The translations under genes were made by a program, and so were the position numbers. A stretch of DNA of 64,000 nt, from assembly GCF_011492945.1 (NCBI RefSeq), contig NZ_CP045119.1:1426001-1490000 (forward strand), given 5' to 3'. The notes beneath the pieces are model-generated. The model made no database searches, was not told the DNA's origin, and saw only the letters and a list, made by a program, of their open reading frames with translations. Positions 37,201 to 60,883 of this stretch are shown in pieces (positions within the stretch are counted from its first letter, which is position 1; each line of letters begins with the position of its first letter). The stretch is from Rubrobacter tropicus (lineage in GTDB: Bacteria; Actinomycetota; Rubrobacteria; Rubrobacterales; Rubrobacteraceae).

Positions 37201-37445
37201 CTGGGGGGCTCTTCTTGACCGGCGTTTCGGGGTGGGGGTAGGATGGGCGGCATGACGATTCTTTCGTAGGCGGTGGAGATGGGGGCGAGGGGGTGCGGTT
37301 CCCTCCGGCTCCGCCGTACTTCCGTTAGCCCGTGCCCGGTTCTGCGCTGGGTTGGTTCGGGCCTTTAGGTTGGTAAGGGCGCGTTTCGCCCCACGGGTGG
37401 TGAACCGTGGATCGGCGAGGCTTGTGCGAAGAGGGCGGGATCTTT
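37201..37445 (+). promoter_or_regulatory. Promoter and long leader upstream of the MFS gene
   Basis: TTGACC (37215-37220) and TAGGAT (37239-37244) are spaced by 18 bases. The ATG at 37252 lies at the expected transcription start and opens a five-codon leaderless frame (M-T-I-L-S, stop at 37267-37269). The following 150 or so bases have several short G/C-rich palindromes but no riboswitch I recognise. No other gene is present. Confidence 0.4.
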
Positions 37446-38675
37446 GTGAACGGTTTTAGGGCTTATCCGGTGTACCTCGGTATCAAGGGGGCGTTCGCAC
37501 TCTTTTTCATGTTGTGGGCTACCGTGGCTTCCGTTTACAGGATCGAGGAGGTGGGCCTGGACCCCTTGCGGCTCGTGCTGCTCGGCACGGCGCTTGAGGT
37601 CGCGGTGCTCGTCTTCGAGGTGCCCACCGGGGTGCTCGCGGACACCTACGGGCGGAGGCGTTCCGTCATCGTGGGGTTCTTGTTGATGGGGTCGGGCTTC
37701 GCGCTCGAAGGTGCCGTTCCGACTTTCGCGGCCGTGCTCGTGGCGCAGGCGGTGTGGGGGGTTGGGTACACGTTTATCAGCGGGGCCCTGGAAGCCTGGA
37801 TCGCGGACGAGGCCCCCGAACGGAACCTAGGGCGGGTCTACCTGCGGGGCGAGCAGGCGGATTACGCGGGATCGCTCCTCGGCGTTATCCTTAGCGTGGC
37901 CTTCGCGACTTACGCCCTGAACCTGCCGCTCCTTCTCGGAGGCTTCCTCACCGTCGGGCTCGCCGTCGCGCTCTTTTTCGTTATGCCGGAGCGGAACTTC
38001 GACCCCTCGCCGCGCGAGGGGCGGACTTCCTTGCAGCAGGTGCGGGCCACGGCGCGGGGCGGGGTTCGGCTGGTGCGGGCCCGTCCGGTGCTCCTGATCC
38101 TGCTCTCCGTCGCCGTCTTTACCGGCATGTCCGAGGAGGGCTTCGACCGCCTCTACGCGAAGCACTTTCTGGACGGCCTCGGGCTCCCGTCCCTGGGCGC
38201 CCTTGATTCCGTGGTCTGGTTCGGGATCATAAACGCTGGAGCCTTGATTTTGAGCTACCTCGCCGCCGAGGTCGTCGGCCGCAGGCTGAACGTGGGGGAC
38301 CCGGCCGTCGTCGCCCGCCTGCTGCTCGTCTTGAACGCCTGCATGATCCTGGGTACGCTCTCCTTCGCCCTCGCGGGAAGCTTCGCGTTCGCGCTGGCGG
38401 CGTTCTGGTTCGCGAGCCTCGCCAGAACCCTCGCCGAGCCGCTCTACCTGACGTGGCTCAACGAGGGGTTGGAGCCCGGTATCCGGGCCACCGTAATCTC
38501 GATGGGCAGCCAGGCCGGAGCCTTCGGCGAGGCCTCCGCCGGACCCGTGATCGGGGCAATAGGCAACCTGGCAGGCGTCCGCACCGCCCTCACCGTCGCC
38601 TCCATCATCCTCTCCCCGGCCCTCCTGCTCTACGCCCGCGCCATCCGTCACCAGGGCAACCCGGACGCCAAATAG
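37446..38675 (+). CDS. MFS transporter
   Basis: About 409 residues with twelve likely helices. The loop between helices 2 and 3 reads VPTGVLADTYGRRRSVIVG, the major facilitator signature (G-x-L-A-D-x-x-G-R-R). VFEVPTGVLAD and the C-terminal ISMGSQAGAFGEASAGPVIGAIG match drug-efflux-like members of the family. The substrate is unknown. The GTG at 37446 has an upstream GAGGGCGGG; a GTG at 37407 would add 13 residues. It precedes the sulfur operon but has its own promoter and is probably unrelated. Confidence 0.85.
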   Translation: MNGFRAYPVYLGIKGAFALFFMLWATVASVYRIEEVGLDPLRLVLLGTALEVAVLVFEVPTGVLADTYGRRRSVIVGFLLMGSGFALEGAVPTFAAVLVAQAVWGVGYTFISGALEAWIADEAPERNLGRVYLRGEQADYAGSLLGVILSVAFATYALNLPLLLGGFLTVGLAVALFFVMPERNFDPSPREGRTSLQQVRATARGGVRLVRARPVLLILLSVAVFTGMSEEGFDRLYAKHFLDGLGLPSLGALDSVVWFGIINAGALILSYLAAEVVGRRLNVGDPAVVARLLLVLNACMILGTLSFALAGSFAFALAAFWFASLARTLAEPLYLTWLNEGLEPGIRATVISMGSQAGAFGEASAGPVIGAIGNLAGVRTALTVASIILSPALLLYARAIRHQGNPDAK

Positions 38676-38698
38676 CCCGCAGAGACCCGCCTCGCGAC

Positions 38699-38756
38699 CA
38701 ATTCCGATAAAAAGTGTCGGAATTGTATTGACGGAGTGGGGTTTACGTCCTACTAT
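38699..38756 (+). promoter_or_regulatory. Operator and promoter of the sulfate assimilation operon
   Basis: CAATTCCGA and TCGGAATTG form a perfect nine-base inverted repeat with a nine-base spacer (38699-38725). Two bases later comes TTGACG (38728-38733), then 17 bases and TACTAT (38751-38756): a near-ideal housekeeping promoter. The palindrome has the look of an Rrf2/CymR-type site, but that assignment is a guess. A related TCCGA-N9-TCGGG site overlaps the promoter of the sulfurtransferase gene at 59515. Confidence 0.75.
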
Positions 38757-38763
38757 CCCGCAC

Positions 38764-38850
38764 ATGGAGTTGCAAAGTACGCAGGGACAGGCGAAGAGGC
38801 GAATGTTCACGGCGCTTCTCGCGGGCGCTCGATGTAGCGTTCGCGTCTGA
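38764..38850 (+). CDS. Leaderless cysteine-containing leader peptide
   Basis: A 28-codon frame whose ATG lies eight bases after the -10 box, exactly where transcription should begin, so it would be translated without a leader. Near its end are the codons R-C-S-V-R before TGA at 38848. The single Cys codon TGT lies in the loop of a ten-base-pair hairpin (38820-38845). Actinobacterial sulfur operons are known to carry small Cys-containing leaders that act as attenuators. This peptide is placed for that role, 40 bases before cysH. Translation is not proven. Confidence 0.6.
   Translation: MELQSTQGQAKRRMFTALLAGARCSVRV
38820..38845 (+). promoter_or_regulatory. Attenuator-like RNA hairpin in the cys leader
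   Basis: CGCGGGCGCT pairs with AGCGTTCGCG (two G-U wobbles) around loop CGATGT, with CCCCCTTTT about eight bases later. A ribosome pausing at the Cys codon in the loop would disrupt this stem. The short T run makes it a weak intrinsic terminator; Rho or translation-coupling variants are possible. Confidence 0.5.
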
Positions 38851-38890
38851 CCCCCTTTTCCGAGTCTTACGATCCCGATGGAGGACCGCT

Positions 38891-39637
38891 ATGCCTGAAG
38901 CCCTGCGTTTCCAGCAAGACAAGACAATACTGCCAGACCCCGAGGGTCTCGACCTCGAGTCGAACCGGCTCGAAGGGTCGGACCCGAGGGAGATCATCCA
39001 GTGGGCCGTCGAGACTTACGGCGACGGGTTGGCCCTCTCGGCCTCCTTCGGGGGCGGGGAGGGGATGGCGCTCCTCGACATGATCTCCAAGATCACGAAC
39101 AAGGTTACCGTCCTCACCATCGACACCGGCTTTATCTTCAAGGAGACCGCGGAGTTTCGTGAGGAGGTCATGCGCCGGTACAAGCTGCCGGTCGAGGTTT
39201 TGAAGCCTGCGCTCTCGATCGAGGAGCAGGTCGAGCGCTACGGGGATCAGATGCGCACCTGCACGCCCGACCTTTGCTGCCAGATCCGCAAGATAGAGCC
39301 GCTCCAGAGGGCGCTCTCCCGCTACGACGCCTGGATGACCGGCATCCGCAGGGTCCAGACGCCCCAGCGGGCGAACACGAAGATCGCCGCCTGGGAGGAG
39401 CGCTACGGCGCCGCCAAGATAGCGCCGCTGGCGGGTTGGACGGACGAGCAGGTCTGGAACTACGTCCGCGAGCACGACGTCCCCGTCAACCCGCTGCTGC
39501 ACCAGGGCTACAAGAGCATCGGCTGCGAGCCCCAGACGAGGCCCGTCCACGACGACGAGGACCCGAGGGCCGGCCGCTGGTCCGGCACGGAGAAGACCGA
39601 GTGCGGCCTTCACTGGGTCAGCGCCGCCGGTTCGTAA
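38891..39637 (+). CDS. cysH: Adenylyl-sulfate (APS) reductase
   Basis: 248 residues from ATG 38891 with GGAGG. It reduces APS to sulfite with thioredoxin. LALSASFGGGEGMALLDMI is the P-loop-like SGGK-type start, followed by TVLTIDTGFIFKET. The iron-sulfur pair is C129-C130 in PDLCCQIRK, and the catalytic cysteine C238 is in KTECGLH. In typical APS reductases the second pair is C-x2-C; here it reads GCEPQT, so C212 is present but Q215 replaces the fourth ligand. The CC pair still points to APS rather than PAPS. First gene of the operon, agreeing with sat and cysC downstream. Confidence 0.9.
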   Translation: MPEALRFQQDKTILPDPEGLDLESNRLEGSDPREIIQWAVETYGDGLALSASFGGGEGMALLDMISKITNKVTVLTIDTGFIFKETAEFREEVMRRYKLPVEVLKPALSIEEQVERYGDQMRTCTPDLCCQIRKIEPLQRALSRYDAWMTGIRRVQTPQRANTKIAAWEERYGAAKIAPLAGWTDEQVWNYVREHDVPVNPLLHQGYKSIGCEPQTRPVHDDEDPRAGRWSGTEKTECGLHWVSAAGS

Positions 39638-39689: not shown

Positions 39690-41321
39690 ATGCGTTTTCT
39701 CAGGGAGGGCCAGACCCTCAACAAGGTTGAGCAGATAAAGCTCCAGCGCCACCCGCTGGAGGTCAAGCAGGCGATAATAGACACCTACTCCGAAGACCTC
39801 TCCAGGATGGACGAGGTTCCTGGTGAGGTCGAGCGCCTGAAGTGGGTAGGCATCTACCCGCAGAAGCAGGGCGGCGACGCCTTTATGATGCGCGTGAAGG
39901 TGCCCGGCGGCGTCCTGACGCCGGAGCAGACGAAGGTCATAGGCAAGATCGCCTCGGACTTCGCAAACGGCCCCATATCGAACCCCCACTTCGGCAACAA
40001 CTTCCTCGACATCACCACCCGCCAGGACGTCCAGATGCACTGGCTCAAGATGGGTGACATACCGGAGGTCTGGCGCAGGCTCGAAGAGGCCGGCATAACC
40101 ACCGTGCAGGCGTGCGGAGATTCCGCGCGCAACGTCCTCTGTTGTCCCGTCTCCGGCCTCGACCACGAGGAAGTCATAGACGCCTACCCGATAGCGCAGG
40201 CCATAAGCGACTACTTCACCGGCAACCGCGAGTACGCGAACCTGCCGCGGAAGTTCAAGATGAGCGTCACGGGGTGTCTGGAGGACTGCGCCCAGGCCGA
40301 GATCAACGACATAGGCCTCCTGCCCGCGCGCCTGGAGGACGGGACCATCGGCTTCAACCTCCGCGTCGGGGGCGGGCTGTCTGATGGGCCGCGGATGGCG
40401 TCCGACATAGACGTCTTCGTCAGGCCGGAGGAGGCCGTGGAGATCACGCGCGGCATAGCCCAGGTCTTTGGCGAGCTCGGCGACCGCGAGAACCGCTGGA
40501 CGGCCCGTATGCGCTACCTGGTCCAAAGAATAGGCCCCGAGGCCTTCCGCGACGAGCTCGAGAAGCGAGTCTCCGTCGAGCTCACGCCGGCCGGCGAGGA
40601 CCTGACCAAGCGGTACCGCGGCGACCACGTCGGCGTCCACGCCCAGAAGGACGGGCTTTTCTACGTGGGGCTCAACGTCCCCGTTGGCCGGATGAGCGGG
40701 GAACACTTTGTGGAGGCGGGGCGTCTCGCCGAGGAGTACGGCGGCGAGGTGCGGCTGGCGACGGACCAGAACCTGGTAATAACGGGCGTCCCCGAGGATA
40801 AGATCGACGACCTGCTCGCCGAGCCGCTGTTGGAGAGGTTCTCGCCCAAGCCCGGGGCCTTCGAGCGGGGTGTCGTTGCCTGCACGGGGAGCGAGTTCTG
40901 CCGGTTTGGGATAGTGGAGACCAAGATCCGGGCCGTCGAGTGGGCGAAGGAGATGGACGAGCGCGTGGGCGACGTCGGCCAGGACGCGGTTCGGATGCAC
41001 TTCTCGGGCTGCTCGGCTTCCTGCGCCCAGCCCCAGATAGGTGACGTCGGGTTCCGCGGCGAGACGGCCAAGACCCAGACCTCCATAGTCGAGGGCGTAG
41101 ACATCGGGCTTGGCGGATCCCTCGGCCGAGACGCCGCGTTTATAGACTGGGTCGAGGGGGCTAAGCCCGCCGAAGAGGTCCCCGACGCGCTCGTCTCGGT
41201 CTTCGAGCGTTTCAAGGAGGAGGGGCGACCCGGCGAGCGGTTCCACGAGTGGGCCCGGCGCAAGAAGAACAAAGAGCTGCGCGAGGCGTTGCGCAAGCCC
41301 GCGAAGGTGGGGGGCCGCTAG
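39690..41321 (+). CDS. Siroheme sulfite (or nitrite) reductase
   Basis: 543 residues. The C-terminal half has the siroheme/[4Fe-4S] ligand set: C398 and C404 in CTGSEFCRFGIVETK, and C441 and C445 in FSGCSASCAQPQIGDVG. The N-terminal half has a comparable group (C142, C151, C152, C196, C200) in CGDSARNVLCC and VTGCLEDCAQAEINDIG, reflecting the internal duplication of the family but with more cysteines kept than usual. It should reduce sulfite to sulfide with six electrons. Its TAG shares one base with the start of the FrhB-like gene, and the position between cysH and sat argues for sulfite rather than nitrite. Confidence 0.88.
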   Translation: MRFLREGQTLNKVEQIKLQRHPLEVKQAIIDTYSEDLSRMDEVPGEVERLKWVGIYPQKQGGDAFMMRVKVPGGVLTPEQTKVIGKIASDFANGPISNPHFGNNFLDITTRQDVQMHWLKMGDIPEVWRRLEEAGITTVQACGDSARNVLCCPVSGLDHEEVIDAYPIAQAISDYFTGNREYANLPRKFKMSVTGCLEDCAQAEINDIGLLPARLEDGTIGFNLRVGGGLSDGPRMASDIDVFVRPEEAVEITRGIAQVFGELGDRENRWTARMRYLVQRIGPEAFRDELEKRVSVELTPAGEDLTKRYRGDHVGVHAQKDGLFYVGLNVPVGRMSGEHFVEAGRLAEEYGGEVRLATDQNLVITGVPEDKIDDLLAEPLLERFSPKPGAFERGVVACTGSEFCRFGIVETKIRAVEWAKEMDERVGDVGQDAVRMHFSGCSASCAQPQIGDVGFRGETAKTQTSIVEGVDIGLGGSLGRDAAFIDWVEGAKPAEEVPDALVSVFERFKEEGRPGERFHEWARRKKNKELREALRKPAKVGGR

Positions 41322-42520
41322 TGGCGGGTTTCGACATCCGGGAGATGATGAACGACATCGACGAGGCCCCCGGGAAGGTCTGGTTCTGGGATTTGGAGCA
41401 GGCCGTCATCGACGCCGACCGCTGCGTGCAGTGCGGCGTGTGCGTGGCGGCGTGCCCGACCGACTCCATCGGGATCGGCTCGGACGACCTGCCGGAGCTC
41501 GTCAAGATGTGCACCGGCTGCTCTTTGTGCTGGGACTTCTGCCCTAGAGGCGGCCTGCAGTACGAGGCGACGTGGAAGATCTCGGGCAACGGCAACGGCC
41601 ACAGGGGCAACGGCCTCGGGCACGTCGAGGAGAGCTACACGGCGAAGGTGGACCCGGCCATAGAAGGCGTCCAGGACGGCGGGTTCGTGAGCGCGCTCCT
41701 GATCTCGCTTCTGGAGAACGACGAGATAGACGGCGCCCTGTTGGCCCGCGAGAGCGAGACCGAACGTTGGAAGGGCGAGGCGTTCCTTGCCACGACTCCG
41801 GAAGAAGTCCGCGAGTGCGCCGGCAGCTTCTATAACCAGACGCTTGCCTTGGGCCACGTGGACTTCAAGGGCTACGACCTGCCGCCGAACCCGCGGATAG
41901 CCGTCGTCGGCACGCCGTGCGAGATCGAGGGCATAAAGGCCATGCAGGCGAGGCCGTGGACCTGGGGCACCTCGCAGGTGGAGGCGATCACGCTGACCAT
42001 CGCGCTTCTGTGCACCAAGAGCTTCAACTACGAGAAGCTGATGCTGGAGGAGATCCGGGACAAGCGCGGCGTGGATCTGGACAACGTCGGGCGGGTGGAC
42101 ATCATCCGCGGCAAGATGATCGTGCAGGACCTGGAAGGCGAGTCTATCTTCGAGGAGCCGATCCGGGACTTCCACAACGCCGCCCTGAAGGGCTGCGACG
42201 AGTGCGCGGACTTCATGGGCCACGCGGCGGACATCTCCGTCGGCAGCGTCGGCAGCGCGGACGGCTACTCCAGCGTGCTGGTCCGTTCGGAGGAGGGCAG
42301 GGTTGCCTTCGAGCACGTAAGAGACCGTTTGTTAACCCGGCCGCTTGACAAACCGCAGGCATTGGATAAGCTTGACGCTTTGGACAAGAGGGTGGCCTTT
42401 AGCACCTTGAAGCGGGCCTTCGACCCCGACGCCCCGCTCTTTATAGACTTTGAGGACCACCTGAACGACTACGCCGGGACGGACCGCGCCCCGGTCGAGC
42501 ACGAAGCGGTGAGGTATTGA
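41321..42520 (+). CDS. F420 hydrogenase/dehydrogenase beta-subunit (FrhB/FpoF-like) with two [4Fe-4S] motifs
   Basis: 399 residues from a GTG that shares a base with the sulfite reductase stop. Two ferredoxin motifs come first: C35, C38, C41, C45 and C64, C67, C70, C74. A Gly/Asn-rich linker (SGNGNGHRGNGLGH) leads to the FrhB domain: VQDGGFVSALLISLLENDEIDGAL, VVGTPCEIEGIKAMQ, LCTKSFNY and CDECADFMGHAADISVGSVG. This class binds FAD and F420 and passes electrons from F420H2 through iron-sulfur clusters. Placement next to the reductase suggests F420H2 is its electron donor, as in the methanogen protein Fsr, where both parts are one chain. Confidence 0.88.
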   Translation: MAGFDIREMMNDIDEAPGKVWFWDLEQAVIDADRCVQCGVCVAACPTDSIGIGSDDLPELVKMCTGCSLCWDFCPRGGLQYEATWKISGNGNGHRGNGLGHVEESYTAKVDPAIEGVQDGGFVSALLISLLENDEIDGALLARESETERWKGEAFLATTPEEVRECAGSFYNQTLALGHVDFKGYDLPPNPRIAVVGTPCEIEGIKAMQARPWTWGTSQVEAITLTIALLCTKSFNYEKLMLEEIRDKRGVDLDNVGRVDIIRGKMIVQDLEGESIFEEPIRDFHNAALKGCDECADFMGHAADISVGSVGSADGYSSVLVRSEEGRVAFEHVRDRLLTRPLDKPQALDKLDALDKRVAFSTLKRAFDPDAPLFIDFEDHLNDYAGTDRAPVEHEAVRY

Positions 42521-42829
42521 TTGGCACGCGCCCTGCAGAATCTCCCCCTGCGAGAAGAGCCCGTCGAGCTACGGGCCGAGACCCGCGCCCTGCTGGAGGA
42601 GTCGCCCGAGGAGGGCTCGCGGCTCATAGGTGAGGCGGCCTTCGTCGCCGACCTTCTCTGGGAGGACTGGGGGGAGACGCTCGAACCGAAAGGGATGGGC
42701 CGGGACCGCTTCGTCGAGATCTCGCGCGGCTACGCCGACGAGCTGAGGCTCTGGGTGGTCGGAGAACGTCCCTGGGACCACTGCGCGGCCGGGCTGGCCG
42801 GCCGCGTCAAACGCAGGCTACCGGCCTAG
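42521..42829 (+). CDS. Small conserved-looking protein of unknown function in the sulfur operon
   Basis: 102 residues from a TTG immediately after the FrhB-like stop, with GAGG eight bases upstream. It is acidic and helical, with [45 protein letters not shown] in the middle and [14 protein letters not shown] at the end; one cysteine. I recognise no family. Its position between the F420/sulfite module and sat suggests an accessory role for the reductase complex, such as assembly or a small subunit. Confidence 0.65.
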
Positions 42830-42858
42830 ACCAGGCCATCCAAGCGGAGGTACAAAAC

Positions 42859-44058
42859 GTGACGACAGGCACCACGGAACACGGCATGATAGCCCCCCAC
42901 GGCGGCGAGCTAATCGACCGCCGCGCCCCCGAAGGCGAGAGGGACGACCTGCTCCAGAGGGCAGAGGGCCTCGCCAGGGTGACGCTAGGGCCGCGGGCGC
43001 TCTCCGACCTGGAGATGATCTCGACGGGTGTCTTCTCACCGCTTACGGGCTTCATGACCCGGGCCGACTACGATTCCGTGGTCGAGACGATGCACCTCGA
43101 GAACGGCCTCGTCTGGAGCCTCCCCATCACCCTCTCTGTGGACGACGCCGAAGCCGAGCCCATAAACGAGGGCGACGAGGTCGCGCTCGCCGACGGCGAA
43201 GGCCGCGTCCTCGCCACGATGGTCGTCGAGGACAAGTACTCCTACGACAAGGAGCGTGAGGCCAGGGAAGTCTTCGGCACCACGAACGACGAGCACCCCG
43301 GTGTCGCCGCCGTCTACCGCCAGAAGGACACCCTGATCGGGGGCGAGGTAACCCTCCTCGTGGACGACCCGAACCCGAAGCCCTTCCCCCAGTACCACTA
43401 CGAGCCGCGCGAGCTCCGCAAGGTCTTCGCCGAGAAGGGCTGGAAGCGCGTGGTCGGGTTCCAGACCCGCAACCCCGTCCACCGCTCCCACGAGTACATC
43501 CAGAAGAGCGCTCTGGAGATCGTTGACGGACTCCTGCTCAACCCCCTCGTCGGCGAGACCCGCGCAGAAGACATCCCGGCCGACGTCAGGATGCGCTCCT
43601 ACGAGGTCATCCTCGACAAGTACTACCCCAAAGATCGCACGCTCCTCGGCGTTTTCCCGGCTGCCATGCGCTACGGCGGGCCGCGCGAGGCGATCTTCCA
43701 CGCCGTCTGCCGCAAGAACTACGGCTGCACCCACTTCATAGTCGGGCGCGACCACGCGGGTCCCGGCAAGGACTCCAAGGGAAACCCGTTCTACGGTGAC
43801 TACGACGCCCAGCACATCTTCGACGAGTTCGAGGACGGCGAGATCGGGCTGACCCCCCTCTTCTTCGAGCACTCATTCTTCTGCCTGACCTGCCAGGGCA
43901 TGGGCACCACCAAGACCTGCCCCCACGACAAGGAGAACCACGTCTTCGTCTCCGGCACCAAGGTCCGCGAGATGCTCTCCAATGGCGAGTATCCTCCGCC
44001 GGAGTTCTCCCGCCCCGAGGTTATAGAGGTTCTCATGGAAGGCCAGAAAACCGCCTAG
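42859..44058 (+). CDS. sat: Sulfate adenylyltransferase
   Basis: 399 residues of the Sat (not CysDN) type, starting at a GTG with CGGAGGT. It makes APS from sulfate and ATP. Conserved blocks: [39 protein letters not shown] (Q-T-R-N-P-x-H-R-x-H, the ATP/sulfate site), [28 protein letters not shown] and [20 protein letters not shown] cluster [17 protein letters not shown] adds three cysteines that may bind zinc, as in several bacterial Sat proteins. It supplies APS to the reductase at the start of the operon. Confidence 0.95.
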
Positions 44059-44065
44059 AAGAATC

Positions 44066-44081
44066 TTTAACATTTGTTAAA
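44066..44081. promoter_or_regulatory. AT-rich inverted repeat between sat and cysC
   Basis: TTTAACA and TGTTAAA flank a TT centre in an unusually AT-rich 80-base gap. It could be an operator for an internal cysC promoter. No -35/-10 pair is convincing. Confidence 0.4.
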
Positions 44082-44140
44082 CTAGCTGCGTTAGCAACAG
44101 CAAGCAACGACAAGTAACTGAAAGTAAAGGAGAGGTGAGA

Positions 44141-44710
44141 GTGGAGAACGGGAAGCGGCGTGGGGGATTCACGCTATGGTTCACCGGGTTGTCCGGGGCA
44201 GGGAAGACGACGATCGCCGAGATCGTGGAGCACGAGCTCCGGATGCGTCGCGTCAAGATCGAGGTCCTCGACGGGGACATCGTGAGGACGAACCTCTCCA
44301 AGGGCCTCGGTTTCAGCCGGGAGGACAGGGACACGAACGTTCTCCGCATCGGCTTCGTGGCGGATCTTCTGACGCGCAACGGCGTCGGCGTTATCGTCTC
44401 GGCCATCTCTCCCTTCAAGGAGGTTCGGGACCAGGTTAGGCGCAACGTGGGCGAGGGCTTCGTGGAGGTCTTCGTGGACGCGCCGCTCGACGTGTGCGCC
44501 GATCGGGACGTCAAGGGGCTGTACAAGAAGGCTTTCAGCGGCGAGATCCCGCAGTTCACCGGCGTCTCCGACCCCTACGAGGCCCCCGTCGCCCCCGAGC
44601 TCCACATAAAGACCAACGAGGAAGAGCCGGCCGAGAGCGCCGCGCGGGTCGTCAGGTACCTCGAGGAGCAGGGCTTCCTACAGCCCGTTCCGGAATTCAA
44701 CCGGGTCTAG
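44141..44710 (+). CDS. cysC: Adenylyl-sulfate kinase
   Basis: 189 residues. FTLWFTGLSGAGKTTIAEIVEHEL carries the Walker A motif, VLDGDIVRTNLSKGLGFSREDRD the APS-binding region, and VEVFVDAPLDVCADRDVKGLYKKAFSGEI the lid and product-binding loop of APS kinases. It makes PAPS from APS. A GTG at 44141 is eight bases from AAGGAG and is preferred over the GTG at 44135. Because the reductase here looks APS-specific, PAPS may serve sulfation rather than assimilation. It is followed by the exporter-like gene after one base. Confidence 0.95.
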   Translation: MENGKRRGGFTLWFTGLSGAGKTTIAEIVEHELRMRRVKIEVLDGDIVRTNLSKGLGFSREDRDTNVLRIGFVADLLTRNGVGVIVSAISPFKEVRDQVRRNVGEGFVEVFVDAPLDVCADRDVKGLYKKAFSGEIPQFTGVSDPYEAPVAPELHIKTNEEEPAESAARVVRYLEEQGFLQPVPEFNRV

Positions 44711-44711
44711 C

Positions 44712-45515
44712 ATGTTCGACGCCACCCCCACCCTCTTTGGCCTGCTCGTCGGTTTCCTGGTCGGCCTCACGGGGGTGGGGGGCGGCTCTCTGATGACGCC
44801 GTTTTTGGTTGCCGGGCTGGGGGTTCCGGCGCCCACGGCCGTCGGGACCGACATGGTCTTCGCCACCCTCACCAAGTTCACCGGCTCCGTGCAGCACTAC
44901 CGCCAGCGGTCGGTCAACCTGGAGGTGGCTTTGTTCCTCGGGTTCGGGAGCATCCCCGCGGGGTTGCTCGGGGTGGCGACGCTCGAGTGGATCGAGGGCG
45001 CCTTCGACCCCGAGACGGTGAAGTCCATCATGATCACCGTCATAGCCTGCACGCTCGTGTTGGTCGGCGCTTCCCTGATCTACCGCAACTACTTCATGCC
45101 GAATCGGGACGCCAGCCCCAAACCGCACGTCTGGGACGGCAAGACGAAGATGAGCACCAGGCGACGGGCCTACACGGTCGTCTTCGGCGCCTTCGGAGGC
45201 TACCTCGTCGGCCTGACGTCCATAGGCTCCGGCAGCGTGATGGCCGTGATACTGCTGCTGCTCTACCCGCTGGCCCCGGCCGTCGTGGTGGGCACGGACA
45301 TAGCCCACGCCACCGTACTCTCCCTGGTCGTCGGCCTCGCCCACATGACCCAGGGCAACGTGGACTTCGGCCTCGCGGGTTCCCTGCTCCTCGGCGGCAT
45401 CCCCGGCGTCCTTATCGGCAGCCGCATCGCCCCCTGGCTTCCAGGCAAACCGCTCAAGACGGTCCTCGCCGTCATGCTCATCTTCGTCGGCGTCCGCCTG
45501 CTTCTGACCTACTAA
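44712..45515 (+). CDS. TauE/SafE (DUF81) family sulfur-compound transporter
   Basis: 267 residues with about eight helices. FLVGLTGVGGGSLMTPFLV and YLVGLTSIGSGSVMAVILLLL are the two TauE signatures, related by internal duplication, and each half ends with a GTD-x-x-x-A-T helix (GTDMVFATL; GTDIAHATV). These permeases move sulfite, sulfonates or sulfate-related anions. As the last gene of the sulfur operon, starting one base after cysC, it could bring in sulfate or expel excess sulfite; the direction is not determinable from sequence. Confidence 0.9.
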   Translation: MFDATPTLFGLLVGFLVGLTGVGGGSLMTPFLVAGLGVPAPTAVGTDMVFATLTKFTGSVQHYRQRSVNLEVALFLGFGSIPAGLLGVATLEWIEGAFDPETVKSIMITVIACTLVLVGASLIYRNYFMPNRDASPKPHVWDGKTKMSTRRRAYTVVFGAFGGYLVGLTSIGSGSVMAVILLLLYPLAPAVVVGTDIAHATVLSLVVGLAHMTQGNVDFGLAGSLLLGGIPGVLIGSRIAPWLPGKPLKTVLAVMLIFVGVRLLLTY

Positions 45516-57083: not shown

Positions 57084-59441
57084 CTAGACGGAGCGTGCGC
57101 GTTCCGGCACGCCGTAGAGGGTGTTGCGGCGGCGGGGGGTGCGGCCTACGTCCCGGATCATGGCCTCCAGATCCGAAGGCGTCATCTCCTGGCCGTGGTC
57201 GGCGCCGGCGGCCCGGCTGATGCTCTCGTTCATCAGCGTGCCACCGAGGTCGTTGCAGCCGGCCTGCAGGCACGCCTTCGCGCCCTCGGCGCCGAGCTTC
57301 ACCCACGAGACCTGAACGTTGTCTATGTGGCCGTGGAGCGCGATCCTGCCTACCGCGTGCATCTTGACCGTCTCGGTGAAGGTGGGGCCCCTGCGGGAGC
57401 GGCCCTGCAAGTAGAGCGGGGCTCCCATGTGGACGAAGGGCAGCGGCACGAACTCCGTGAAGCCGCCCGTGTCGGCCTGTATGTCCCGCAGGACCATGAG
57501 GTGCCGCGCCCAGTTCGCGGGACCGTCGACGTGGCCGAACATGATGGTCGTCGTGGCGGAGAGCCCGATGCCGTGCGCCTTTCGCATCACCTCCGCCCAT
57601 TGGGCGGTGTTGATCTTGTCCGGGCAGATGATGGCCCGGATCTCATCGTCCAGGACCTCCGCCGCCGTACCGGGTAAGGTCCCGAGCCCGGCCTCCTTTA
57701 GCTCCACGAGGAACTTCTCGACAGATATGCCCAGGGTGCGCGCGCCCTGCCACACTTCGAGGGGCGTGAAGGCGTGGACGTGCATGTCGGGCACCTCGTC
57801 TTTTACGGCCCGCAGGTAATCTATGTAGTTCTTGCCCGTGAAGCTGCCGTGGATGCCGCCGACCATGCAGACCTCGGTGGCGCCCTTCTCCCACGCCTCC
57901 CGCGCCCTTCGGGCCACCTCGGCCGTGTCCAGGAGGTAAGGGTCGCCGCGCAGGTTGAGGGACTTCGGCCCCTTGGAGAAGGCGCAGAAGCGGCACCGGA
58001 AGTAGCACTGGTTCGTGTAGTTGATGTTCCGGTTCACGACGTAGGTGACCTCGTCGCCGTTGACCTCGCGCCTGAGCCCGTCGGCCACCCGGCAGAGCTC
58101 CTCGAACTCCGTCCCCCGCGCCGTGAAGAGCAGGGCTATCTCGTCCTCGCGCAGGTCCCTGGTCCCGGCGGCCGCGAGCGCCCTCGCGAAGTTGGGCCGC
58201 ACCTTCGAAGGGCGCAGACCCCTCGCCTCGGCAAGGACCTTCGCCGGCACGGGCTCCGTGGTGCCCGGCGCCCAGTCTTCGGTCCTGGCGAAGCCCTCGG
58301 CGTCCTGGGCGGACAAGACGCCGGGGCGGAGGCGTTCGTCCACCCAGGTTCCGGCGTCGCGGGCGTAGGAGGGGTGGAGGGCGAGTCGTTCGAGGAGCAG
58401 GTAGCCCTTTGCCTGGGTGGCCTTTTCGAGCTCTTCCAGGTGGGGCCAGGGGCGTTCGGGGTTGACGTGATCCGGGGTTACGGGGGAGACGCCGCCCCAG
58501 TCGTTTATGCCGGCGTCGATGTAGCGGGCGTAGGAGGGCGTGCCGTTGACCTCTAGACCGGCAAGGTTCGGGGGCGCCTGGACGGTAACGTCGGAAGGCA
58601 GAAGGAGGCGGGCCAGGGCTATGGTGGCGAGCATCTCGTCCTCGGTCGGCTCGGACCAGCCCGCCATGCGGGTGCCCGGCTTGGCGCGGAAGTTCTGGAC
58701 TATGCACTCCTGGATGTTGCCGTGGCGCTCGTGGAGGTCGCGGATGGCGAGGATCGTGTCGACCCGCTCCTCGACGGTCTCCCCGATCCCGATAAGGATT
58801 CCCGTCGTAAACGGAACCTTGAGCCTTCCCGCCCCTTCCATCGTCTTCAGGCGCTTGGCAGGGACCTTGTCCGGGGAGGCCCAGTGGGCGAGGTTCGGGC
58901 CGAGCAGCCGGTCGGAGGCCTGCTCCAGCATGATCCCCTGCGAGACCGAGACGGGCCTGAGATCCCGCACCTCCCCCGCCGAGAGGACCCCGGGATTCGC
59001 GTGCGGCAGTAACCCTGTCTCCTCCAGCACGAGCCGGCAGCAGTGGGCCAGGTACTCGATGGTCGTCCCGAAGCCCATCTCTCTCAGCTCGCGCCTGGCC
59101 TCGGGGTAGCGCTTCTCGGGCTTGTCCCCGAGCGTGAACAGGGCCTCCTTGCAGCCGGCCTCTGCGCCTGCCCTCGCGACCTCGAGGACTTCTCCGGGTG
59201 TCAGGAACGCTTTTTCGCCGGGGCGTGGGCCGTGGGCGAAGGTGCAGTAGCCGCAGTTGTCGCGGCAGAGCTTGGTGAGGGGGATGAAGACCTTGCGGGA
59301 ATATGTGATCCTCGGCCCGAAGGCCCGGTCGCGGACCTCGGAGGCCGCCTTCATGGCCGGTTCCGGGTCGGCGTAGGCCGCCCATGCCAGCTCGTAGATC
59401 CTCTCGCGCCTCTCTTCGTCGCCCATCAGCGCGTCTACCAA
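57084..59441 (-). CDS. fbiC: FO synthase, fused CofG-CofH
   Basis: 785 residues, the length of actinobacterial FbiC. It makes the 5-deazaflavin FO from tyrosine and a flavin precursor by two radical-SAM reactions. The first cluster motif is C59-R-D-N-C63-G-Y-C66 in the N-terminal (CofG) half; the second is C479-Y-F-R-C483-R-F-C486 in the CofH half. Other conserved parts are PGVLSAGEVRDLRPVSVSQGIMLEQ and HVHAFTPLEVWQGARTLGIS. A TTG at 59441 is preferred for its GGGGGT site; ATG 59426 is possible. It is separate from the cofDCE operon, as in many actinobacteria, and is the first step of the pathway. Confidence 0.95.
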   Translation of the reverse strand: MVDALMGDEERRERIYELAWAAYADPEPAMKAASEVRDRAFGPRITYSRKVFIPLTKLCRDNCGYCTFAHGPRPGEKAFLTPGEVLEVARAGAEAGCKEALFTLGDKPEKRYPEARRELREMGFGTTIEYLAHCCRLVLEETGLLPHANPGVLSAGEVRDLRPVSVSQGIMLEQASDRLLGPNLAHWASPDKVPAKRLKTMEGAGRLKVPFTTGILIGIGETVEERVDTILAIRDLHERHGNIQECIVQNFRAKPGTRMAGWSEPTEDEMLATIALARLLLPSDVTVQAPPNLAGLEVNGTPSYARYIDAGINDWGGVSPVTPDHVNPERPWPHLEELEKATQAKGYLLLERLALHPSYARDAGTWVDERLRPGVLSAQDAEGFARTEDWAPGTTEPVPAKVLAEARGLRPSKVRPNFARALAAAGTRDLREDEIALLFTARGTEFEELCRVADGLRREVNGDEVTYVVNRNINYTNQCYFRCRFCAFSKGPKSLNLRGDPYLLDTAEVARRAREAWEKGATEVCMVGGIHGSFTGKNYIDYLRAVKDEVPDMHVHAFTPLEVWQGARTLGISVEKFLVELKEAGLGTLPGTAAEVLDDEIRAIICPDKINTAQWAEVMRKAHGIGLSATTTIMFGHVDGPANWARHLMVLRDIQADTGGFTEFVPLPFVHMGAPLYLQGRSRRGPTFTETVKMHAVGRIALHGHIDNVQVSWVKLGAEGAKACLQAGCNDLGGTLMNESISRAAGADHGQEMTPSDLEAMIRDVGRTPRRRNTLYGVPERARSV

Positions 59442-59514: not shown

Positions 59515-59546
59515 TCCGACAAAATTTATCGGGGATCGGATAGAAT
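59515..59546 (+). promoter_or_regulatory. Operator-promoter of the sulfurtransferase gene
   Basis: TCCGA-N9-TCGGG (59515-59533) is the same half-site and spacing as the cys operon palindrome. It overlaps the expected -35 position of a TAGAAT -10 box at 59541-59546, so a bound protein would block transcription. Co-regulation with sulfate assimilation is inferred. Confidence 0.55.
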
Positions 59547-59582: not shown

Positions 59583-60452
59583 GTGAGCGAGCAGCAGATA
59601 GAGCAGAAGGGTTACGCCCACCCGGAGGCGCTGGTCAGCACCGACTGGGTGGCCGAGCATCTGAACGACCTTGAGAACGTGCGCATCGTCGAGTCCGACG
59701 AGGACGTGTTGCTCTACGAGGTGGGCCATATTCCGAACGCCGTCAAGATCGACTGGGTAGAGGACCTCAACGACCCGCTCGTGCGCGACTACCTCGACCC
59801 GGAGCACTTCGCCCGCCTGATGGGCGAGAAGGGCATAGGCCCGGACACCAAGGTCGTCTTCTACGGGGACAAGAACAACTGGTGGGCCACGTATGCGTTG
59901 TGGGTCTTCCGGCTCTTCGGGCACGACAACGTCGCCGTTATGGACGGGGGCAGGATAAAGTGGGAGGCCGAGGGCCGCGAGATGACCCAGGAGGTCCCCG
60001 AAGTCCCGCAGAAGGACTACCCGGTGCCGGCCAGGGACGACTCGAAGATCCGGGCCTTCAAGGCCGACGTCGAGAGGCACCTCCAGTCGAACGGGCCCAT
60101 GGTCGACGTGAGGAGCCCCGGCGAGTACTCGGGCGAGCTTCTGCACATGCCCGACTACCCGCAGGAGGGCGCGCTCCGCGGCGGCCACATCCCCGGGGCC
60201 GCCAACGTGCCGTGGGCGCGGGCCGCGAGGGAGGACGGAACCTTCAAGAGCGCGGACGAGCTCAAGGAGATCTACGAGGGCGAGGCAGGCCTCTCGGGCA
60301 GCGACGACGTCGTCGCCTACTGCCGCATCGGGGAGCGCTCCAGCCACACCTGGTTCGTGCTCAGCTACCTGCTCGGCTACGACAACGTCCGCAACTACGA
60401 CGGCTCCTGGACCGAGTGGGGCAACTCCGTCGGCGCCCCCATCGAGCGGTAG
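59583..60452 (+). CDS. Thiosulfate/3-mercaptopyruvate sulfurtransferase (tandem rhodanese)
   Basis: 289 residues from a GTG with GAAGGGAG. Two rhodanese domains: the first, inactive, with [26 protein letters not shown]; the second with [14 protein letters not shown]...[16 protein letters not shown] and the active-site loop C-R-I-G-E-R-S in [39 protein letters not shown]. It moves a sulfane sulfur from thiosulfate or mercaptopyruvate to a thiol acceptor. A SufU-like gene lies 11 bases downstream, suggesting sulfur delivery for clusters. Confidence 0.92.
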
Positions 60453-60463
60453 GCCGCACGCCT

Positions 60464-60883
60464 TTGGACCGCAAAGAGCGCGTAGCCTACCTCGTCGACC
60501 ACTTCGGGAACCCCCGCCACAAGGGGGTTCTCGAAGGCGCGGACGTGGCCATGCCGGGCGGCAGCCCCGAGTGCGGCGGCTCCGTCGTCGTCTACCTCAA
60601 GGGCGACGGGAACGGCGGCATAGAAGACCTCGCCTGGACGGGCCAGGGAGACACCATCAGCATGGGCGCCACGTCTGTAATCGTCGGGCGCGTGCGCGAC
60701 GAGGGGCTCACGCTCCAACAGGTGCTCGACCTCGACTACGAGAAGTTCATGGACTCCATAGGCCGGGACGTCATCGGCAGCCGCACCCGCAACGCGACTT
60801 TGGGCCTCTCGACCATAAAGTCCGCCGTCAGGAAGTACCAGAGGGACCGGATCGCTGACACGGAAGACCGCGCCACGGCGTAG
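60464..60883 (+). CDS. SufU/NifU-like scaffold protein with missing ligands
   Basis: 139 residues from TTG 60464. The NifU-N fold is visible: VAYLVDHFGNPRHKGVLEGADVAMPGGSPECGGSVVVYLKG, then DLAWTGQGDTISMGATSVIVGRV, and LSTIKSAVRKYQRD at the end. A normal scaffold has three cysteines: one in the first block (kept, PECGG), one in the G-x-G-C block and one near the C-terminus. Here the second position is aspartate-like (GQGDTIS) and the third is absent. It may bind zinc or receive sulfur rather than hold clusters. It is transcribed with the sulfurtransferase. Confidence 0.75.
   Translation: MDRKERVAYLVDHFGNPRHKGVLEGADVAMPGGSPECGGSVVVYLKGDGNGGIEDLAWTGQGDTISMGATSVIVGRVRDEGLTLQQVLDLDYEKFMDSIGRDVIGSRTRNATLGLSTIKSAVRKYQRDRIADTEDRATA

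Follow-up and report, generated by a model that had tools for sequence, protein, structure and literature searches.

A leaderless reading frame with an invariant CGA-TGT codon pair, a probable cysteine-responsive leader of the cysH operon in Rubrobacteraceae

What is the role of the short reading frame that separates the cysH operon of Rubrobacter tropicus from its promoter? Within the window, the whole stretch of 64,000 nucleotides analysed here, the sigma-70-like promoter TTGACG-17-TACTAT (38728–38756, + strand) is the sole site of its kind in 801 bases scanned (shuffles, mean 0.1), and it is also kept in the leaders of relatives. An ATG stands 7 nt after the -10 box TACTAT, at 38764, and, as an earlier note on this DNA had claimed, opens a leaderless frame of 28 codons ending ARCSVRV (38764–38850, + strand, ATG to TGA; MELQSTQGQAKRRMFTALLAGARCSVRV-stop), recognized as an open reading frame and from its relatives; its distance of 40 nt to the cysH ATG (38891) is also as the note gave it. 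The single Cys codon, TGT at 38833–38835, belongs to an Arg-Cys codon pair, CGA-TGT (38830–38835, + strand), which we presume to be a site of ribosome stalling. The frame probably encodes a leaderless leader peptide that serves as an attenuator, making the cysH operon responsive to cysteine. Beyond what the note described, we found that the rare CGA-TGT pair is invariant and that an operator-like sequence precedes the promoter.

The first gene of the operon, cysH (38891–39637, + strand), is preceded by the Shine-Dalgarno sequence GGAGG (38880–38884, + strand) and encodes a (phospho)adenylyl-sulfate reductase (NF002537, 258 bits with a cut-off of 154; TIGR00434, above cut-off). According to profile matches, the remaining genes of this apparent sulfate-assimilation operon (39690–45515, + strand), which are presumably co-transcribed, specify in order a sulfite/nitrite reductase-like protein, an FrhB/FdhB-like iron-sulfur protein, a small protein of unknown function, sulfate adenylyltransferase, adenylyl-sulfate kinase and a TauE-type permease. 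A cysteine/sulfate-assimilation operon thus lies directly 3' of the leader, as it does with the polycysteine attenuators of mycobacteria. The FrhB/FdhB-type gene (41249–42520; coenzyme F420 hydrogenase beta-like, with a ferredoxin domain) immediately follows the sulfite reductase-like gene, and its place in the operon hints that F420H2 may supply the electrons for reducing sulfite. The neighbour on the upstream side of the cysH promoter is an MFS transporter gene (37407–38675), whose nearest models, TetA(P) and Tet(40), score 336 and 293 bits, far under their curated cut-offs (750 and 800).

Comparison of the leader peptide with the NCBIfam profiles retrieved no family at E values up to 10, short peptides being hard to detect in this way. 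Likewise, among Rfam-type covariance models (T-box, riboswitches, leaders) run on the window, a single tRNA alone reached the gathering score, and the best hit in 38600–39000 (E 0.17) was below cut-off and positioned within cysH. The strict promoter-plus-ATG pattern occurs 22 times in the R. tropicus genome, and 15 distinct matches open frames of at least 88 amino acids. Most matches are long frames starting 6–8 nt after the -10 box, several of them resembling transcription regulators, so leaderless genes appear to be common in this organism.

The earlier note had proposed checking whether the frame and its Cys codon are conserved in relatives. We searched 60 genomes for cysH, obtaining a match in 43, and read the upstream DNA of the copies from the family. 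The family subset of this search comprised 36 genomes, of which four gave no match (G001, G025, G029, G034) and one (G035) contained only a fragment at a contig end (L137), which was left out; genomes G060–G062 were outside the cysH search and were included in later family searches. The resulting orthologous set contains 32 cysH loci from 31 genomes (G031 being represented twice). Among the near relatives of the window's genome are the named records uncultured Rubrobacteraceae bacterium AVDCRST_MAG01 (L031) and Rubrobacter sp. CP_BM_ER_31 (L032). One leader is cut by a contig end before the promoter (L014) and another is broken in frame (L015), and the structure statistics refer to the other 30.

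All 31 leaders with a promoter region, from 13 genera of Rubrobacteraceae, have the promoter and a start codon 7–9 nt past the -10 box, a geometry that predicts leaderless translation in every case, as in the mycobacterial attenuators. In 30 of these 31, the start codon opens a frame of 28–49 codons with Arg-Cys 2–8 codons before the stop, so both the frame and its Cys codon are kept. The distance from start to CGA takes seven values (66, 69, 72, 75, 87, 105 and 132 nt), each a multiple of 3, and the span of the uORF is open in the frame of the leader in 30/30 cases, the window included, and in the other two frames in 12/30 and 2/30. The exception, L015 (G030), has five G where a comparison by eye shows six in the in-frame L014, a break of 1 nt that is possibly a sequencing or assembly error or a natural loss. 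Cys-tailed short frames were found in 16 of the 32 family leaders, compared with 4.3 expected from shuffles. Conversely, 94 cysH loci that do not belong to the orthologous set (four family paralogs, 12 loci from other genomes of the phylum and 78 of 80 further loci) yielded seven such frames against a shuffle expectation of 9.5; in many outgroup genomes another gene may come before cysH. No leader of this kind precedes the paralogous cysH copies in genomes of the family (L131, L132, L134 and L135). Together, this comparative evidence indicates that the leader frame is real. One member of the set, L003, lies with its cysH on a short contig of G031 (genus g8) and is nearly identical to a leader of genus g1 (L005); this genome also contains a g8-like cysH copy (L133), and L003 is probably a binning contaminant, which we kept and counted among the ten leaders nearest to the window.

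The most interesting part of the leader is the fixed CGA-TGT pair, identical in the 30 in-frame leaders. Both codons are rare, CGA accounting for 12 of 297 Arg codons and TGT for 3 of 55 Cys codons in ten genes of the window. As a control, we examined cysH itself in the 32 loci, where TGT is used at four invariant Cys positions in 2–5 of 32 loci and CGA at eight invariant Arg positions in 0–2 of 32. Arg-Cys-Ser-Val is a common tail of the leaders, and the codon 3' of the pair is AGC in 23 of 30, AGT in two and others in five (the replacements being AGT, CGC, TGC, ATC and ATG). The 22 or more residues ahead of Arg-Cys are unconserved between genera, and among the ten leaders nearest to the window the ratio of nonsynonymous to synonymous changes was 2.37, with 2.45 expected, so that within this group the peptide, judged by its substitutions, evolves as if unconstrained. 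After the pair, Cys takes up 19 of 130 tail codons, compared with 55 of 4045 across ten genes of the window, and at least one extra Cys is present in 14 of 30 leaders. These extra codons are TGC in 15 of 19 cases, indicating that the TGT of the pair does not reflect a general preference. Contiguous Cys codons occur in two of 30 leaders (L013 and L021) and, by eye, in the contig-end-cut L014.

Both codons of this pair would be read by wobble. ARAGORN identified tRNA-Arg with anticodons ACG, CCG, TCT and CCT in R. tropicus, and one tRNA-Cys (GCA). A tRNA-Arg(UCG) was missing from the 46 tRNAs that ARAGORN read out of 48 tRNA matches in this genome (L217 and L218 remaining unread), which, with the usual editing of A34 to I34 assumed, would leave CGA to be read solely via an I34:A3 pair; UGU is read through G:U wobble by tRNA-Cys(GCA). 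Decoding by I34:A3 is described as inefficient in a passage of PMC3711424, and a part of PMC4046918 dealing with the his leader of Salmonella relates that inosine-containing tRNA reads CGA slowly and that Arg pairs containing CGA cause high de-attenuation. The CGA-TGT pair would thereby sharpen the response to scarce Cys-tRNA. We tentatively suggest, further, that the sensor might be one fixed wobble pair, CGA (I-A) in the P site and UGU (G-U) in the A site, slowing decoding such that a single Cys codon matches the sensitivity of a mycobacterial Cys cluster. On this same suggestion, slowing of A-site decoding by the I-A pair in the P site would lead selection to fix the synonymous codons while the peptide drifts.

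How could a ribosome waiting at this pair act on the operon? The earlier note correctly placed the sole Cys codon in the loop of a ten-pair stem, with arms 38820–38829 and 38836–38845 (+ strand), two G-U pairs and a loop of 6 nt, and 0.2% of shuffles (0.002) contained a stem as long. It also took this hairpin for the working part, followed by a T run. Classical attenuation of that kind, in which a stalled ribosome would open a stem resembling a terminator, can point to the stem of the window and to another of nine pairs in L004. However, the supposed T run is really CCCCCTTTT, with no terminator-like site; no intrinsic terminator was found in the region of the window scanned, and the same type of scan of the 30 leaders gave two weak ones (L016 and L025). 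Moreover, only four of 30 leaders (L001, L004, L019 and L023) enclose the Cys codon in a stem equalled by less than 1% of shuffles, and the uninterrupted stem comprises 3–5 pairs in 21 of 30. In an alignment of ten leaders of the genus, 83.0% of cells pair, compared with 82.2% in shuffles, and one pair has changed on both sides, a result that shows no covariation above shuffles; slid registers of the stem pair in at most 56%, as is to be expected for a structure taken from one of the aligned leaders. At the level of the family, the alignment gave an empty consensus structure, and the whole leader of the window folds no better than shuffles (z +0.38), its minimum-energy fold using other pairs. 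The hairpin as a conserved working part was thus rejected by shuffles, genus alignment and covariation, and an explanation built on it is mostly refuted by non-conservation and very unlikely to be right. A translational attenuator of mycobacterial style, where the ribosome-binding site of cysH is paired with the leader until a ribosome stalling at Cys releases it, is the reading published for M. smegmatis in sections of PMC13236596 and PMC9031893, and we consider it rather unlikely here. In the free fold, pairing of the Shine-Dalgarno sequence stands at about 0.66, and a few leaders do shift with a stalled ribosome, such as L006, in which the unpaired fraction rises from 0.13 to 0.65. Nevertheless, mean pairing over the 30 leaders barely depends on ribosome position (0.66 free, 0.66 with the ribosome at Cys and 0.64 at the stop) and shuffles give 0.68–0.69, so predicted pairing shows no signal of sequestration above shuffles; a stretch of at most 48 nt that runs as far as the start codon of cysH is less structured than shuffles (mean energy z +0.70).

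We also considered two other explanations. The decamer CGATGTAGCG could be a conserved nucleic-acid motif, contacted by protein or RNA, in a frame that is incidental; its nucleotides are indeed better conserved than the amino acids, and the peptide drifts neutrally in the genus. Against this stand the in-frame position of the motif in 30 of 30 leaders, the distances in multiples of three, the openness specific to one frame, the enrichment of the tail in Cys and the replacement of the AGC after TGT in seven of 30. As a free-standing motif, plain CGATGTAGCG is also too common, with 1–28 copies per genome, including copies beyond the leaders such as a second one in the window (58517–58526, inside the gene at 57084–59441, minus strand). 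Complementarity of CGATGT to sequence near the Shine-Dalgarno, inspected by eye in some members, proved inconsistent. We therefore find the motif explanation improbable. Still less probable is an arrest peptide, in which a nascent Arg-Cys-Ser-Val end would stall ribosomes and sense a ligand or the redox state: that tail is common, and part of PMC4633059 speculates on a redox influence on Cys-rich mycobacterial uORFs, but the variability of at least 22 residues before Arg-Cys between genera and their neutral drift within the genus speak against it, and the fixed synonymous codons would be left unexplained.

The spacer between the leader stop and the Shine-Dalgarno sequence (38851–38879, + strand) is G-poor and C/U-rich, which by composition makes it a candidate Rho-loading stretch. 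Over the 30 leaders, mean spacer composition is A 0.20, C 0.32, G 0.15 and T 0.34, with C exceeding G in 26, and within the uORF G is abundant (mean 0.35; G over C in 25 of 30). Leaders of four paralogous cysH genes have G contents of 0.28–0.40, and three other window genes have 0.20, 0.25 and 0.30, two of the three also with more C than G; this composition control is therefore small and goes partly against specificity. In the ten leaders nearest to the window the spacer measures 25–35 nt, short for a Rho-loading site alone, so that such a site would need to take in part of the uORF or of cysH. The genome contains a rho gene. Given this composition, and folding that offers no actuator, we tentatively favour Rho-dependent attenuation as the actuator.

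A cysteine-sensing role for the leader is likely on comparative grounds, since the sequence supports a leaderless start by its geometry, a frame kept among relatives, an Arg-Cys pair fixed near the stop and, in many relatives, extra Cys in the tail. In the attenuator that we favour, scarcity of Cys-tRNA would make the ribosome wait at UGU with a poorly decoded CGA in its P site, and this ribosome, at the very end of the frame, would prevent the default shut-off of the operon. With less confidence, we propose that this shut-off would be Rho-dependent termination in the G-poor spacer, in preference to a hairpin terminator or to sequestration of the ribosome-binding site. A counterpoint to attenuation is that most leaders have one Cys codon in the tail region, and amino-acid attenuators usually employ runs of cognate codons.

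A second control may operate at the promoter, through a regulator binding to the operator-like palindrome AATTCCGATAAAAAGTGTCGGAATT (38700–38724, unstranded), whose core of 19 nt stops 6 nt before the -35 box. The palindrome, with a consensus near AAATCCGACAAAAAATGTCGGATTT, stands 6–7 nt before TTGAC in all 31 leaders with a promoter, and its pattern was found in 26 of 39 genomes of the family, the reversed control giving 0 in every genome. In the window, the pattern matches a second copy (59515–59533, unstranded), located before a gene for a rhodanese/mercaptopyruvate sulfurtransferase-like protein (59583–60452) and a NifU_N gene (60452–60883). When second sites were fetched from other genomes, a rhodanese gene adjoined the palindrome in five of six; none was found at the remaining one, L225, because the fetched stretch ends just past the site. 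The rhodanese and NifU_N genes and cysH probably form one regulon. In sulfur regulons, operators of the CymR/Rrf2 type are palindromes upstream of sulfur genes. The arrangement seen here is similar, with one palindrome common to several sulfur genes and Rrf2-family genes in the genome, four scoring well above the cut-off and a fifth barely above it; an Rrf2/CymR-like protein is, as a guess, the candidate regulator.

At the RNA level, a parallel is offered by tnaC of E. coli, cited in PMC1262725, where Rho-dependent leader-peptide attenuation involves an arrest peptide and a ligand. As in tnaC, a ribosome stalled at the end of the leader would shield the RNA from Rho; unlike the tnaC arrest peptide, the Rubrobacteraceae leader conserves codon identity and not the peptide. 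Closer in kind are the polycysteine leaderless short ORFs that mycobacteria reportedly possess. We selected mycobacteria-like genomes through the PE family, from which their label is deduced, and found a short Cys-tailed frame before a sulfite reductase-like gene in seven of seven, with the motif RRH(V/I)D-x-x-RVC(S/T) followed by further Cys. In Serinicoccus (L107), a short frame ending in EVDLLRVSSMLMCPCR precedes the cysH match by some 344 nt; we take it to resemble the RHVDL-type leader peptides of other actinobacteria. The leaders of Rubrobacteraceae share with the mycobacterial frames the leaderless start, the short frame, Cys near the stop and the position before cysteine/sulfate genes. 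In contrast to the mycobacteria-like leaders, in which the Arg-Cys dipeptide is absent, they lack RRH(V/I)D-x-x-RVC, often have one Cys and carry the fixed CGA-TGT. As far as architecture shows, both types may work alike, with neither the peptide sequence nor the Cys run in common. Mycobacterial polycysteine leaderless sORFs upstream of cysteine/sulfate genes are cited in passages of PMC9031893, PMC13236596 and PMC9094748. Seliverstov et al. (2005; PMC1262725), in the portions of that article drawn on here, list candidate Cys leaders without terminators in Mycobacterium, P. acnes and B. longum and propose Rho-dependent termination for the mycobacterial ones; R. xylanophilus belongs to their genome set, and those portions name no Cys leader for it. 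The leaders described here resemble the candidates in these portions in having Cys codons near the stop, in preceding cys operons and in lacking a conserved hairpin. None of the titles and abstracts listed by our literature searches describes a Cys leader in Rubrobacter.

If this reading is correct, Rubrobacteraceae would join mycobacteria and related actinobacteria in using leaderless cysteine attenuation, with a different peptide that often has a single Cys, and with an RNA-level sensor paired with a conserved promoter operator that is common to a sulfurtransferase operon. The fixed synonymous rare wobble pair also raises the question of whether, in an amino-acid sensor, codon-pair context can substitute for the run of regulatory codons.
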